Assembly (NCBI GenBank): GCA_014653355.1
Contig: JACWEO010000001.1
Coordinates: forward strand, 138,912 to 202,911
From: Pelagibacterales bacterium SAG-MED47
GTDB lineage: Bacteria > Pseudomonadota > Alphaproteobacteria > Pelagibacterales > Pelagibacteraceae
DNA: 64,000 bases
Reading direction: 5' to 3'
Under the pieces are notes generated by a model. It had not been told where the DNA came from and did no database searches. It saw only the letters and a list, made by a program, of their open reading frames with translations. A program made the translations under genes and the position numbers. Of the stretch, positions 33,081 through 57,883 are shown piece by piece. Numbering within the stretch: the first letter of the stretch is position 1; the number at the start of each line of letters is the position of its first letter.

Positions 33081-34088
33081 ATGGAAAAAAAAATAAATTT
33101 AAAAAGAATAGTTATGGAGGTTTTTGGGGGGTGTAATTATACTTGCCAAATGTGTCCACAGACCAACCCTGGAAGAGGAAAAAGTTTTACCAGAAAAATG
33201 CCTTTAAAAGAATTCGAGAGAATTTTAGATGAAATAGTGCCTAAGCATGGAAAACCTCAAATTAATTTAGAGGGCAGTGGGGAACCTACTATGGCAAAAG
33301 ATTTACCTGAATATATTAAAGCTGTAAAAAAAAGAAATTTAAAATGTTTCATGTATTGTAATGGTGCTCGTTTAAATGGACAGTTTATGAAAGATGTTGT
33401 TGATGCAGGTATAGATTTTATCAGATTTAGTGTTATTGGCTATAACAGAGAATTATATAAAAAGTGGATGAATATAGATAATTTTGATTTGATATTAAAA
33501 AATTTAAGTGAACTTAAATCTTATGTTAAATCTTCAAACGCTGATACAAAAGTTAGTACTTATCATCTAATCACAGACAACGACAATATAAATAAAGAAA
33601 TAGAACTTTATAAAAACAATGTTATTAATGTTGTGAATTCTATTGCTTACATATGGAAAATGCATAATTGGAGCGGCAATCACGACAATATTAACCCTAG
33701 AGAAAAAACAAAAAGAAGGACTTGTGGAAGACCATTTGCTCCAGAATTAACAGTTAGAGCTGGTGGTAAAACTGGCAGAACCGGGAGCGTTGTTCCTTGT
33801 TGTCAAACATTAGGACCACCAAATGAGGAAAAAAGTATTTTAGGTCATTTAGATAAAAGCAGTTTTGAGGAAGTTTATTTTGGGAAAGAATATGAAGATT
33901 TAAGGAATGCTCATGAAAAAAAAGATTTTGATAGAATAGATTACTGTAAAAATTGTGATTTTTTATATGAGGATCCAGAAGCTATTGTATGGACTAACGA
34001 CAAAGATCATCAATTATACAATATGTTAGGTACAGGAGAAGATTTTATTCTCACAGACTATAAAGATAGAAATAAACATCCTAAATAA
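33081..34088 (+). CDS. Radical SAM protein with SPASM-like C-terminus
   Basis: In this 335-residue protein GGCNYTCQMC gives the CxxxCxxC iron-sulfur motif (C18, C22, C25). The C-terminal part has further cysteines (RTCGRPF, VPCCQTLG, DYCKNCDF) as in SPASM domains that bind auxiliary clusters. The substrate is not evident; a sugar epimerisation or deoxygenation, or a peptide modification, would fit. It is separated from the oxygenase by 69 bases and followed at once by a GT-like gene starting with TTG. Confidence 0.75.
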   Translation: MEKKINLKRIVMEVFGGCNYTCQMCPQTNPGRGKSFTRKMPLKEFERILDEIVPKHGKPQINLEGSGEPTMAKDLPEYIKAVKKRNLKCFMYCNGARLNGQFMKDVVDAGIDFIRFSVIGYNRELYKKWMNIDNFDLILKNLSELKSYVKSSNADTKVSTYHLITDNDNINKEIELYKNNVINVVNSIAYIWKMHNWSGNHDNINPREKTKRRTCGRPFAPELTVRAGGKTGRTGSVVPCCQTLGPPNEEKSILGHLDKSSFEEVYFGKEYEDLRNAHEKKDFDRIDYCKNCDFLYEDPEAIVWTNDKDHQLYNMLGTGEDFILTDYKDRNKHPK

Positions 34089-54466: not shown

Positions 54467-54895
54467 ATGATATATATCTCTCACAGAGGAAATACTTCAG
54501 GAAAAAATGTAAATAACGAGAATCATCCTGACTTTATTTCAAAAGCAATGGAAAAAGGATTTGATGTAGAGATTGATGTTTGGTTTGTTAACAATACTTT
54601 TTCTTTAGGTCACGATAAGCCAGAGTATGAAATTAACTCAGAGTATCTTAATAATACAAAATTTTGGTGTCATGCAAAAAATCCTGAAGCTTTAGAGGCT
54701 ATGAAAAATATTAATTGCCATTTTTTTTGGCATGAGGAGGATAAATTTACTTTAACTTCAAAAGGTTATATATGGTCATATCCTGGAAATTTAGCAGGTA
54801 AAAATTCAATTTTTTTGTTTCCAGAAAATTATCCTAAAATTGATTTTAAATTTTGTGCAGGTATTTGTTCAGATTTTGTAGAAAAGTATGTATAA
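54467..54895 (+). CDS. Short GDPD-like (glycerophosphodiester phosphodiesterase family) protein
   Basis: This 142-residue protein has the GDPD catalytic residues in order: H6-R7 (ISHRG), E35/D37 (VEIDV) and H49 (LGHDK). It is only about 60 percent of a normal GDPD barrel (230-250 residues) and ends cleanly with GICSDFVEKY, so it is either a reduced stand-alone form or a truncated domain. It opens the RuBisCO-like cassette and diverges from the WavE-like gene. A phosphodiester or phosphosugar substrate is the inference. Confidence 0.65.
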   Translation: MIYISHRGNTSGKNVNNENHPDFISKAMEKGFDVEIDVWFVNNTFSLGHDKPEYEINSEYLNNTKFWCHAKNPEALEAMKNINCHFFWHEEDKFTLTSKGYIWSYPGNLAGKNSIFLFPENYPKIDFKFCAGICSDFVEKYV

Positions 54896-54955
54896 GTCTG
54901 ATAAATTTTTTATTATTAAAATTTTAATTTAATAAATATTTTTATAAATAATATC

Positions 54956-55669
54956 ATGAATATTGTTATACCAATGGCAGGAGCAGGAAGCAGATTCCAG
55001 GAAGCAGGGTATACATTTCCAAAACCATTGATTGAAGTCAATGGTCAACCAATGATACAAACAGTTGTTTCAAATCTTAATATTGATGGCTCTTATATCT
55101 TTTTAGTTCAAAAAAATCATTTTGAGAAATACAATTTGAAAAGTTTGTTAGAGGTAATTTCACCTAATTGTAAAATTATTCAAATAGATGGTTTGACTGA
55201 GGGTGCAGCTTGCACGGTTTTAAAAGCTGAAAATTTAATTGATAACGATGAACCTTTGATTATTGCTAATTCAGATCAATATATCAAATGGAATAGTTTC
55301 GAAACGATTTCATTTTTTAATCATGATGATTCAGATGGAGGAATACTTACCTTTGAAAGCTTACATCCAAAACACAGTTTTGCAAAAGTAGATGGAAATG
55401 GAGTTGTTAAAGAGGTTGCTGAAAAAAAACCAATTTCTAACTCTGCTACAGTAGGTATCTATCATTGGAAAAAAGGTTCAGATTTTGTTTTTTATGCAAA
55501 CCAAATGATTGAAAAAAATATAAGAACGAACAATGAATTTTATATTTGTCCAGTCTATAATGAGGCAATAAAAGACGGTAAAATTATAAAGGCAAGTGCT
55601 GTTGATGAAATGTGGGGAATGGGTACTCCAGAGGAGTTGGATAAGTTTCTAAAAGATTTTAAAAAATAA
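54956..55669 (+). CDS. Sugar-phosphate nucleotidyltransferase
   Basis: In this 237-residue protein IPMAGAGSRFQEAGYTFPKPLI (about 4-25) provides the nucleotide loop and catalytic lysine; IIANSDQYI gives the metal-binding Asp, and the end has VDEMWGMGTPEEL. It belongs to the RfbA/GlmU-like superfamily with no left-handed helix domain. Its stop overlaps the RuBisCO-like start (TAATG), so the two are translationally coupled. Its substrate is possibly the product or substrate of that enzyme. Confidence 0.8.
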   Translation: MNIVIPMAGAGSRFQEAGYTFPKPLIEVNGQPMIQTVVSNLNIDGSYIFLVQKNHFEKYNLKSLLEVISPNCKIIQIDGLTEGAACTVLKAENLIDNDEPLIIANSDQYIKWNSFETISFFNHDDSDGGILTFESLHPKHSFAKVDGNGVVKEVAEKKPISNSATVGIYHWKKGSDFVFYANQMIEKNIRTNNEFYICPVYNEAIKDGKIIKASAVDEMWGMGTPEELDKFLKDFKK

Positions 55670-56859
55670 TGCTTTTCTATAATCCAAAAATAGATCAAGA
55701 AAAATATGTAATTGCTAAGTATCTTATAGCGTGCAAAAAAGAAGATTTATCAAAAGCAGCTTGGAGCCTTGCGATTGGTCAAAGTGTTGGTAATCCTGAT
55801 GTAAGAAATAAATGGGAGACTAATGAAATCTTTGAACAAAGTAGTTGTGTAATTCTACATGAGAGAAATGAACTACAAAAAATAAAAAAAGGATATGTAA
55901 AAATAGGTTTCCCGATAATAAATACTGATTGGGAAGGTGACGGTACTAGTCACCTTTTGTGTCAACTTATGGGTGGTCAAATGGACATTGATATTTTTGA
56001 AACTTGTAGATTAGTTAATATTGATTTTCCAAAAGAAGTTTTAAAAAATTATCTTAAACCTAAGTATGGCATAAGCGGGTTAAGAAAAATTTCAGGACAA
56101 GTAAATAAACCTTTTAGTGGGGCAATTATAAAACCTAAAACAGGCATGAGTCCTAAGATACTTTTAGAAATGGTAAAAGAATTAATTGATGGAGGAGTTG
56201 ACTTTATCAAAGAAGACGAAATATTAAGCAACCCATCGTTTTGTAAAATTGAGGATAGAGTTCCATTAATTTCAAATTATATAAGTAAACAAAAAAATAA
56301 AGTAATTTACGCTGTATGTATCAATGGTGATCATCACCATATTATTACTAGAGCAAAGTTAGTAAGTAAGCTTGGAGGAAATGCTATTCATATTAATCAC
56401 TGGTCTGGTTTGGGGGTTTATAATGCTGTTAGAAAATTGGACTTACCATTATTTATTCATTTTCAAAAATCAGGTGATCGAGTATTCACAAATCCTGAAC
56501 ACAAATTTGGAATAAATTGGAGTGTTATTTGTCAACTTGCTGGAATAATGGGGGTGGATTCTATTCATGCTGGTATGTGGGGAGGGTATCTTAGCGAAAC
56601 TGAAGAGGAATTAAAAAAATCACTTAAAATTTTAAGAAATTTAAATGTAGTTCCAGCGTTAAGTTGTGGGATGCATCCTGGCTTAGTTCAAGCAAATGCA
56701 AAAAGATTTGGTAACGATTTTATTGCAAATGTTGGTGGTGCTATTCATGGTCACCCAAGTGGAACTTTAGCGGGTGCTAAAGCAATGAGACAAGCTATAG
56801 ACAAAAACCATGAAATTGAATATGAGCAAGCTATTGCAAAATGGGGATATGTAAAGTAA
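55669..56859 (+). CDS. RuBisCO-like protein (form IV)
   Basis: In this 396-residue protein the RuBisCO large-subunit barrel is clear: GAIIKPKTG (151-159; K155 matches K175), GGVDFIKEDE (175-184) with K181, D183 and E184 matching the carbamate lysine and metal ligands K201/D203/E204, DSIHAG with a histidine at the H327 position, and VGGAIHGHPSGTLAGA. The loop-6 lysine (GKLEG) is replaced by GMWGGYLS. It is therefore not a CO2-fixing RuBisCO; RuBisCO-like enzymes do enolisation, isomerisation or decarboxylation. The setting (nucleotidyltransferase before, GDP-mannose 3,5-epimerase after) points to sugar nucleotide synthesis, a role I do not know to be described. Confidence 0.9.
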   Translation: MLFYNPKIDQEKYVIAKYLIACKKEDLSKAAWSLAIGQSVGNPDVRNKWETNEIFEQSSCVILHERNELQKIKKGYVKIGFPIINTDWEGDGTSHLLCQLMGGQMDIDIFETCRLVNIDFPKEVLKNYLKPKYGISGLRKISGQVNKPFSGAIIKPKTGMSPKILLEMVKELIDGGVDFIKEDEILSNPSFCKIEDRVPLISNYISKQKNKVIYAVCINGDHHHIITRAKLVSKLGGNAIHINHWSGLGVYNAVRKLDLPLFIHFQKSGDRVFTNPEHKFGINWSVICQLAGIMGVDSIHAGMWGGYLSETEEELKKSLKILRNLNVVPALSCGMHPGLVQANAKRFGNDFIANVGGAIHGHPSGTLAGAKAMRQAIDKNHEIEYEQAIAKWGYVK

Positions 56860-56872
56860 TTCAACTATAAAG

Positions 56873-57883
56873 ATGAAAAAAAAAATTTTAATTTGTGGTG
56901 CTGGTGGATTTATTGGAGGACATTTAGCATCAAGGTTTCTCAAAGAAAATAAGTATGATTTAGTATGTGCAGATGTTAAGCCAAAAGAATATTGGTTTCA
57001 GATTTTTGATGAAGCTGAAAACCACAGCCTTGATCTTAAAGAATATGAAAATACTTCAAAGGTCACAAAAAATGTAGACTATATTTTTAATTTTGCATGC
57101 AATATGGGTGGCATGGGTTTTATTGAAAATAATAAAGCAGAATGTATGTTGTCTGTGTTAGTAAATACTAATTTACTAAGATCTGCTGTAAAAAATAGTT
57201 GTAAAAAATATTTTTTTTCTTCAAGTGCATGTGTTTATAATGGATCAAAACAAAATCAAACTTTTATATCTGGCTTAAAAGAGACAGATGCGTACCCAGC
57301 AGATCCAGAAGATGGATACGGTTGGGAAAAATTATTTAGTGAAAGAATGTGTCGTCATTTTAACGAAGATTTTGGAATAGATACAAGAGTAGTTAGATAC
57401 CATAACATTTATGGTCCATTAGGAACTTTTGATGGTGGAAGAGAAAAAGCTCCAGCTGCATTGTGTAGAAAAATTATATTAGCAAAAAAAAATAATTTTA
57501 AGGAAATTGATGTTTGGGGAGACGGTGAACAGACAAGAAGTTTTTTATATATTGATGATTGTATTCAAGGAACTTTAGATGTTTTTAATAGTAATTCTAA
57601 TGAAGTATTCAATGTTGGTAGTGAAGAACAGGTTTCAATAAATCAAATGATAGAAATAATCGAAGATATCGCAAATTATAAGGTTAATAAAAACTATCAA
57701 ATTGATAAGCCAAAAGGAGTAAGAGGAAGATCAAGTGATAATTCATTTATACAAAAACAGATTGGTTGGAAACACACTCATACTCTTAAAGAAGGTTTAA
57801 TAAAAACTTATAATTGGATAAACAATCAGATTGAAAGTGGGACGAATATAAGTAAATTTTCAAAAAGTACTATTGAAAAATAA
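56873..57883 (+). CDS. gme: GDP-mannose 3,5-epimerase
   Basis: This 336-residue protein has NMGGMGFIENNKA (77-89), SSSACVYN with Cys120, DGYGWEKLF with Y149/K153, and YHNIYGPLGTFDGGREKAPAA with Lys192, all as in plant GDP-mannose 3,5-epimerase. C120/Y149/K153/K192 sit at exactly the spacing of the plant C145/Y174/K178/K217. It yields GDP-L-galactose and GDP-L-gulose. Coming 13 bases after the RuBisCO-like gene, it is the best-identified member of the cassette. GDP-mannose is also used by Gmd in this window. Confidence 0.88.
   Translation: MKKKILICGAGGFIGGHLASRFLKENKYDLVCADVKPKEYWFQIFDEAENHSLDLKEYENTSKVTKNVDYIFNFACNMGGMGFIENNKAECMLSVLVNTNLLRSAVKNSCKKYFFSSSACVYNGSKQNQTFISGLKETDAYPADPEDGYGWEKLFSERMCRHFNEDFGIDTRVVRYHNIYGPLGTFDGGREKAPAALCRKIILAKKNNFKEIDVWGDGEQTRSFLYIDDCIQGTLDVFNSNSNEVFNVGSEEQVSINQMIEIIEDIANYKVNKNYQIDKPKGVRGRSSDNSFIQKQIGWKHTHTLKEGLIKTYNWINNQIESGTNISKFSKSTIEK

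Follow-up and report, generated by a model that had tools for sequence, protein, structure and literature searches.

A RuBisCO-like protein clade of phages, SAR11 bacteria and distant phyla, tied to a sugar nucleotidyltransferase and a candidate for activated-sugar biosynthesis

Introduction

To our knowledge, the RuBisCO-like proteins (RLPs) that have been characterized act in salvage or catabolism. For instance, MtnW (YkrW), a form IV protein, is a 2,3-diketo-5-methylthiopentyl-1-phosphate enolase, and the RLP of R. rubrum, which serves sulfur salvage, converts 5-methylthioribulose-1-phosphate to 1-methylthioxylulose-5-phosphate. OiaX and the RLPs that lie beside four-carbon acid sugar kinases belong to the same superfamily and act on phosphorylated C4-C5 acids or sugars. 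In the GOS paper (PMC1821046), 65 RuBisCO homologs were left unplaced. In viruses, one study presented an rbcL as a gene for carbon fixation and showed RuBP activity for it (PMC12615777), and RbcL-like proteins of landfill phages, which group with RbcL-like proteins, have been listed under CO2 fixation (PMC12607003). Here, we describe a clade of RLPs whose genes travel with that of a sugar-phosphate nucleotidyltransferase (NT). No earlier description of this RLP-NT clade was found in the open-licence literature, of which coverage was limited.

The locus and its genomic setting

The window, as the whole stretch of DNA under analysis is called here, comprises 64,000 nucleotides of contig JACWEO010000001.1 from Pelagibacterales bacterium SAG-MED47. 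On its forward strand, a gene for a GDPD-like protein of 142 aa (54467..54895), with the motif HRG...E-x-D...GHD...H-x-K, is followed by those for the NT (54956..55669; 237 aa; PF00483, E=6e-12), an RLP of a distinct form IV-type clade (55669..56859; 396 aa; PF00016, E=3e-40), and a GDP-mannose 3,5-epimerase (GME; 56873..57883; 336 aa). The NT stop and the RLP start have 1 nt in common. These coordinates bear out an earlier note on this DNA, which had described four consecutive genes with an overlap between the second and third. The RLP is the sole PF00016 protein of the 1.13 Mb genome, which is about 91% complete.

The window is itself a large surface-glycan locus. It encodes a GDP-mannose 4,6-dehydratase and a relative of CDP-glucose 4,6-dehydratase, both above their curated cut-offs, together with relatives of GDP-fucose synthase, WecA, and LegC. 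A radical SAM/SPASM-like protein is also encoded within the glycan gene cluster (33081-34085).

Placement among RuBisCO-like proteins

The phylogenetic position of the RLP was taken, after an earlier quick tree, from a bootstrap tree that included MtnW, OiaX, the four-carbon-acid RLPs, and RuBisCOs of forms I and III. The window RLP and its relatives make up a single clade (bootstrap/SH-aLRT 100/99) that falls outside all of these groups and is sister to MtnW in rooted trees. MtnW, the nearest clade, resembles it in fold, in the metal ligands K201, D203, and E204 (RuBisCO numbering), in K175, and in having a glycine at the position of E60. Nevertheless, the two form separate supported groups; position N123 is lysine in MtnW but glycine in the RLP clade, which also keeps K177, and salvage genes accompany MtnW whereas the partner here is the NT. 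Thus, the tree sets the window RLP, with its own clade (100/99), apart from the MtnW clade. Membership in the OiaX/four-carbon-acid group is likewise unsupported, as the window RLP branches outside it and scores 140 against NF042437, where the cut-off is 700; no NCBIfam RLP model reached its cut-off for this protein. Proteins of that group, which have catabolic neighbors, keep H294, R295, and K334, all of them lost or altered in the RLP clade.

It is therefore very improbable that the protein is an RLP of the methionine-salvage or apionate/four-carbon-acid type and came to lie in a glycan island by chance. The separate clade (100/99) argues against it, as do the lack of any match to MtnD (ARD, PF03079) in the ~91% complete genome, the lack of neighboring kinases or transporters of the four-carbon-acid type, and an NT partner that recurs in phages and distant phyla, even if the shared superfamily, the sister relationship with MtnW, and an IF-2B (MtnA-type) match in the genome would fit such a role. 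The IF-2B matches occur on both strands within 600 bases (contig C23:112684-113275), perhaps through an assembly fault.

Active site and fold

In the window RLP, K155, K181, D183, and E184 correspond to RuBisCO K175, K201, D203, and E204, and the loop-6 lysine has become Tyr307; the retention of the former and the loss of the latter had both been read correctly from the sequence. The pattern extends to the whole clade. In the active-site alignment of 39 members, K175, K177, and the carbamate/metal triad K201, D203, and E204 are conserved in 39/39, the triad and K175 being the residues by which membership of the superfamily was judged. In every clade sequence that has a residue there, by contrast with RuBisCO, E60, T65, W66, and N123 are replaced by G, N, P, and G, and H294, K334, and G380 by Q, Y, and C, so that the carboxylation set (E60, N123, H294, and K334) reads G, G, Q, and Y. 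R295 is replaced by Lys, or by Ser in 4/34, and H327 is variable (H/Q); these two changes indicate that one RuBisCO phosphate site is altered, while the phosphate-site glycines are conserved.

With the metal ligands and K175/K177 kept and the substitutions elsewhere fixed, metal-dependent enolization is plausible from the residue pattern, and RuBP carboxylation is not. The earlier suggestion of such an enolization is upheld to this extent, through K201, D203, E204, and K175. However, the loss of E60, T65, and N123 makes any analogy with known RLPs a loose one.

The AlphaFold model of the RLP (pLDDT 89) has form III RuBisCO as its best fold match (TM 0.86; Foldseek E=2e-31). Form III enzymes (2cwx/2d69, 1geh) are also the best sequence match, at about 25% identity, but the residues of CO2 addition are replaced in the RLP. 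That the gene is a RuBisCO-type auxiliary metabolic gene with which phages fix carbon is hardly credible, although carbon fixation has been ascribed to a viral rbcL (PMC12615777) and the protein does match PF00016: the substitutions at E60, T65, W66, N123, H294, and loop-6 K334 are fixed, the context is one of glycan genes, and no small-subunit or Calvin-cycle partner was found among the typed recurrent neighbors.

Distribution in phages and cells

The RLP clade is mainly viral. Relatives of the window RLP are encoded on 217 IMG/VR stretches, of which the best 80 (56-72% identity) were examined as viral loci; the records are mostly fragments, and the counts given here are of contigs with common ancestry. 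A T4-type gp23 capsid gene is present on 5 of the 37 contig records tested, including ones of 172-197 kb, and phage-type families, DnaB and DUF6433 among them, occur as neighbors of the viral RLPs. For instance, the DUF6433 protein of one subset is 75% identical to that of cyanophage S-SRM01, and the DnaB of another is nearest to that of jumbo phage PA5oct. Isolated phages yielded no RLP among 50,697 annotated phage records, although NT, HAD, and GDPD-like genes do occur in such records without an RLP.

Cellular members of the clade come from two lineages of Pelagibacteraceae and from Legionella, Azospirillum, Elusimicrobia, and Verrucomicrobiia, as well as from DPANN archaea. The closest cellular relatives of the window RLP are from Pelagibacteraceae single cells, and the host is accordingly regarded as SAR11. 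A search of 200 related genomes returned only two RLP matches, both weak and distant (26-27% identity), and the gene is consequently regarded as accessory. The NT-RLP DNA of the window is 73% identical over 1.9 kb to a phage contig (L006) whose flanks are dissimilar, and the G+C content of the cassette is 0.28-0.32 against 0.24 for the window. Together, these two features of the sequence point to transfer of the cassette between phage and host. The NT tree, obtained by a fast method and with several unsupported joins, was kept out of the transfer counts.

Two further bacterial records are likely to be phage contigs that were binned into MAGs. The RLP on a Crocinitomicaceae MAG contig (L088) is identical to that of a phage contig (L015), and a T4 gp23 is encoded in the Sphingobacteriales MAG from which locus L102 comes.

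Conserved partners of the RLP

Gene association was measured in 29 viral loci that were sampled by the RLP alone, dereplicated at 90% identity, and flanked by at least 2.5 kb at either end. Pooled counts are biased when the scans are led by the NT or the cupin, and RLP-led counts were relied on except for loci that lack the RLP. Within 2.5 kb of the RLP, an NT was observed in 29/29 loci, a cupin of about 108 aa in 23/29, and a GDPD-like gene in 20/29, whereas neither HAD (0/29) nor PMM (0/29) genes were found there. In cells, the NT adjoins the RLP in 19 of 21 loci in a six-frame profile search, the remaining two being contigs of 3-4 kb. This search also recovered the NT, GDPD, and cupin genes of the GC-rich Azospirillum and Elusimicrobia loci, which simple ORF picking had missed; both have the order GDPD-RLP-cupin-NT. 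The cupin, common to most RLP loci, is absent from the window.

By contrast, the proposal that all four genes of the window, GME included, form a unit was not borne out, since what is conserved is the NT, the GDPD-like protein, and mostly the cupin. The GME itself was correctly named in the earlier note, scoring 317 bits against plant GDP-mannose 3,5-epimerase (8sg0) and 107 bits against the next best family. Its C120, Y149, and K192 are spaced like the plant catalytic residues, which we take to be numbered C145, Y174, and K217. However, it adjoins the RLP only in two close SAR11 relatives, the window and AG-447-J13 (L086; 85% identical), and it was rejected as a conserved fourth member of the cassette; it is better seen as a glycan-locus neighbor outside the RLP module. 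Elsewhere, GME relatives (39-44% identity) occur apart from the RLP in wider glycan regions of some phages, and a cyanophage GME has been reported earlier (PMC9602691).

The NT has no close relative among enzymes whose specificity is proven. Its closest match in the PDB, 4evw, is named only as a nucleoside-diphosphate-sugar pyrophosphorylase. The GDPD-like protein shares a locus with the RLP in 69 of the 80 best viral loci (of 217). Its alignment retains the catalytic motif and has ten invariant residues (H6, R7, E18, N19, E35, D37, G48, H49, H69, and K71). The window protein has no Pfam match of its own, and the family profile weakly matches a GDPD protein (PF03009) from a locus of Nanoarchaeia (L091). 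Its AlphaFold model (142 aa, pLDDT 96) matched no PDB fold at E<0.001 and may represent an unusually small barrel.

Other neighbors are confined to particular groups. In three Legionella species, a conserved LicD, of a phosphotransferase family, lies beside the RLP and NT; as a candidate transferase, LicD has no counterpart in the window genome. In one RLP locus from SAR11, a gene for a ThyX family protein (L093:3-938) immediately precedes that for the GDPD-like protein, and several sister loci have related genes in the equivalent position. In eight phage loci (L051:3549-7875; also L029, L049, and others), the RLP cassette is followed by genes for an APH/fructosamine-kinase-like protein, an AroB-related cyclase, an SDR, and a radical SAM protein, possibly a cyclitol pathway.

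Exchange of the RLP for other enzymes

Viral NT loci that lack the RLP (n=93) have a HAD protein in 83 cases and a PMM in four. In the NT-led scan, the HAD is fused to the NT in 79/85. A TIGR02009 match (E=1.7e-25) links the HAD domain to the beta-phosphoglucomutase family, and HAD proteins include phosphatases as well as mutases. The PMM version is known from four loci only (L280, L282, L285, and L341), with three NT types. In these, the order is NT-cupin-PMM-GDPD; the very slot of the RLP is taken by a protein of phosphomannomutase type (PF03332, up to 2e-20), and no RLP lies elsewhere on the contig records. A further combination is found in cyanophage S-SKS1 (L113:7001-8428), where the NT is fused to a DHBP synthase (RibB), an enzyme whose substrate is ribulose-5-phosphate.

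This exchange bears on whether the tie to the NT might be mainly hitchhiking within mobile glycan cassettes, with the RLP making an unrelated metabolite. The cassettes are indeed mobile (73% DNA identity to a phage contig with unlike flanks; G+C 0.28-0.32 against 0.24), but an NT association of 29/29 over deep divergence and in several gene orders, together with the near-complete exchange for HAD, renders this explanation improbable.

Proposed function

The reading that best accounts for these observations, and that is probably correct, places the RLP in activated-sugar biosynthesis, where it would provide the NT with a sugar phosphate through metal-dependent enolization. This reading is preferred because the clade lies outside MtnW and OiaX, the enolization machinery is kept, and the NT tie holds across phages, SAR11, Legionella, Azospirillum, Elusimicrobia, and DPANN archaea. 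That the RLP of the window helps to make an activated sugar had been proposed earlier; the NT tie in phages and distant phyla makes it the best reading, but the share given to GME did not stand.

The clade, the residue pattern, the gene association, and the exchange of partners are observed; from these, we infer the substrate, product, nucleotide, and direction, as well as the role of the GDPD-like protein, as follows. With its K201/D203/E204 metal site and K175, the RLP would enolize a sugar phosphate, and reprotonation would then shift the carbonyl or the stereochemistry. The adjacent NT would turn the product into an NDP-sugar destined for a surface or virion glycan. The RLP would thus hold the place that a sugar-phosphate mutase-type enzyme, either a HAD fused to the NT or a PMM-like protein, has in the other versions, the step common to all three being one that furnishes the NT with a sugar phosphate. 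In a more specific form of the model, a ketose with a distal phosphate would become a ketose-1-phosphate by movement of the carbonyl, with the phosphate staying put. The precedent is the 5-methylthioribulose-1-phosphate isomerase of R. rubrum, the closest known chemistry in that a carbonyl is moved along a sugar phosphate. It is likened to the RLP by reaction and not by sequence, it differs in serving sulfur salvage, and the proposed reaction would run in the reverse sense. The GDPD-like protein occurs with the NT in the RLP version as well as in the HAD version, which is why we assign it to the NT step or a later one.

An alternative is that the RLP acts after or in parallel to the NT, isomerizing or epimerizing a nucleotide-activated or other phosphorylated sugar, in which case the HAD and PMM versions would lead to alternative sugars. 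This seems rather unlikely, since known members of the RuBisCO superfamily take small phosphorylated substrates, the phosphate-site glycines are kept, and the PMM lies exactly in the RLP slot. Nevertheless, a constant RLP-NT pair in variable gene order would also suit it, as would the AroB-type cyclase, SDR, kinase-like, and radical SAM proteins added in a subset of loci, which indicate that end products differ. As for supply of the NT by the RLP, its boldest form, in which an enzyme of the RuBisCO superfamily stands in for a phosphosugar mutase by a carbonyl shift and phages and their hosts gain a new glycan sugar, is put forward only tentatively.

Implications

The misreading of such genes deserves some caution. 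In virome surveys, phage genes of the RLP clade could be miscounted as carbon-fixation genes. Since RuBP activity was shown for the viral gene in PMC12615777, this caution is limited to members of the RLP clade. The landfill phage proteins of PMC12607003 are also phage RuBisCO homologs, set beside the RLP clade by description only, and unlike it they have been filed under CO2 fixation.

In general, the findings would connect an RLP clade, found mostly in phages but also in bacteria and DPANN archaea, with the biosynthesis of nucleotide sugars. With an NT at hand and enzymes that are interchangeable, the proposed reaction should be testable with few purified proteins.
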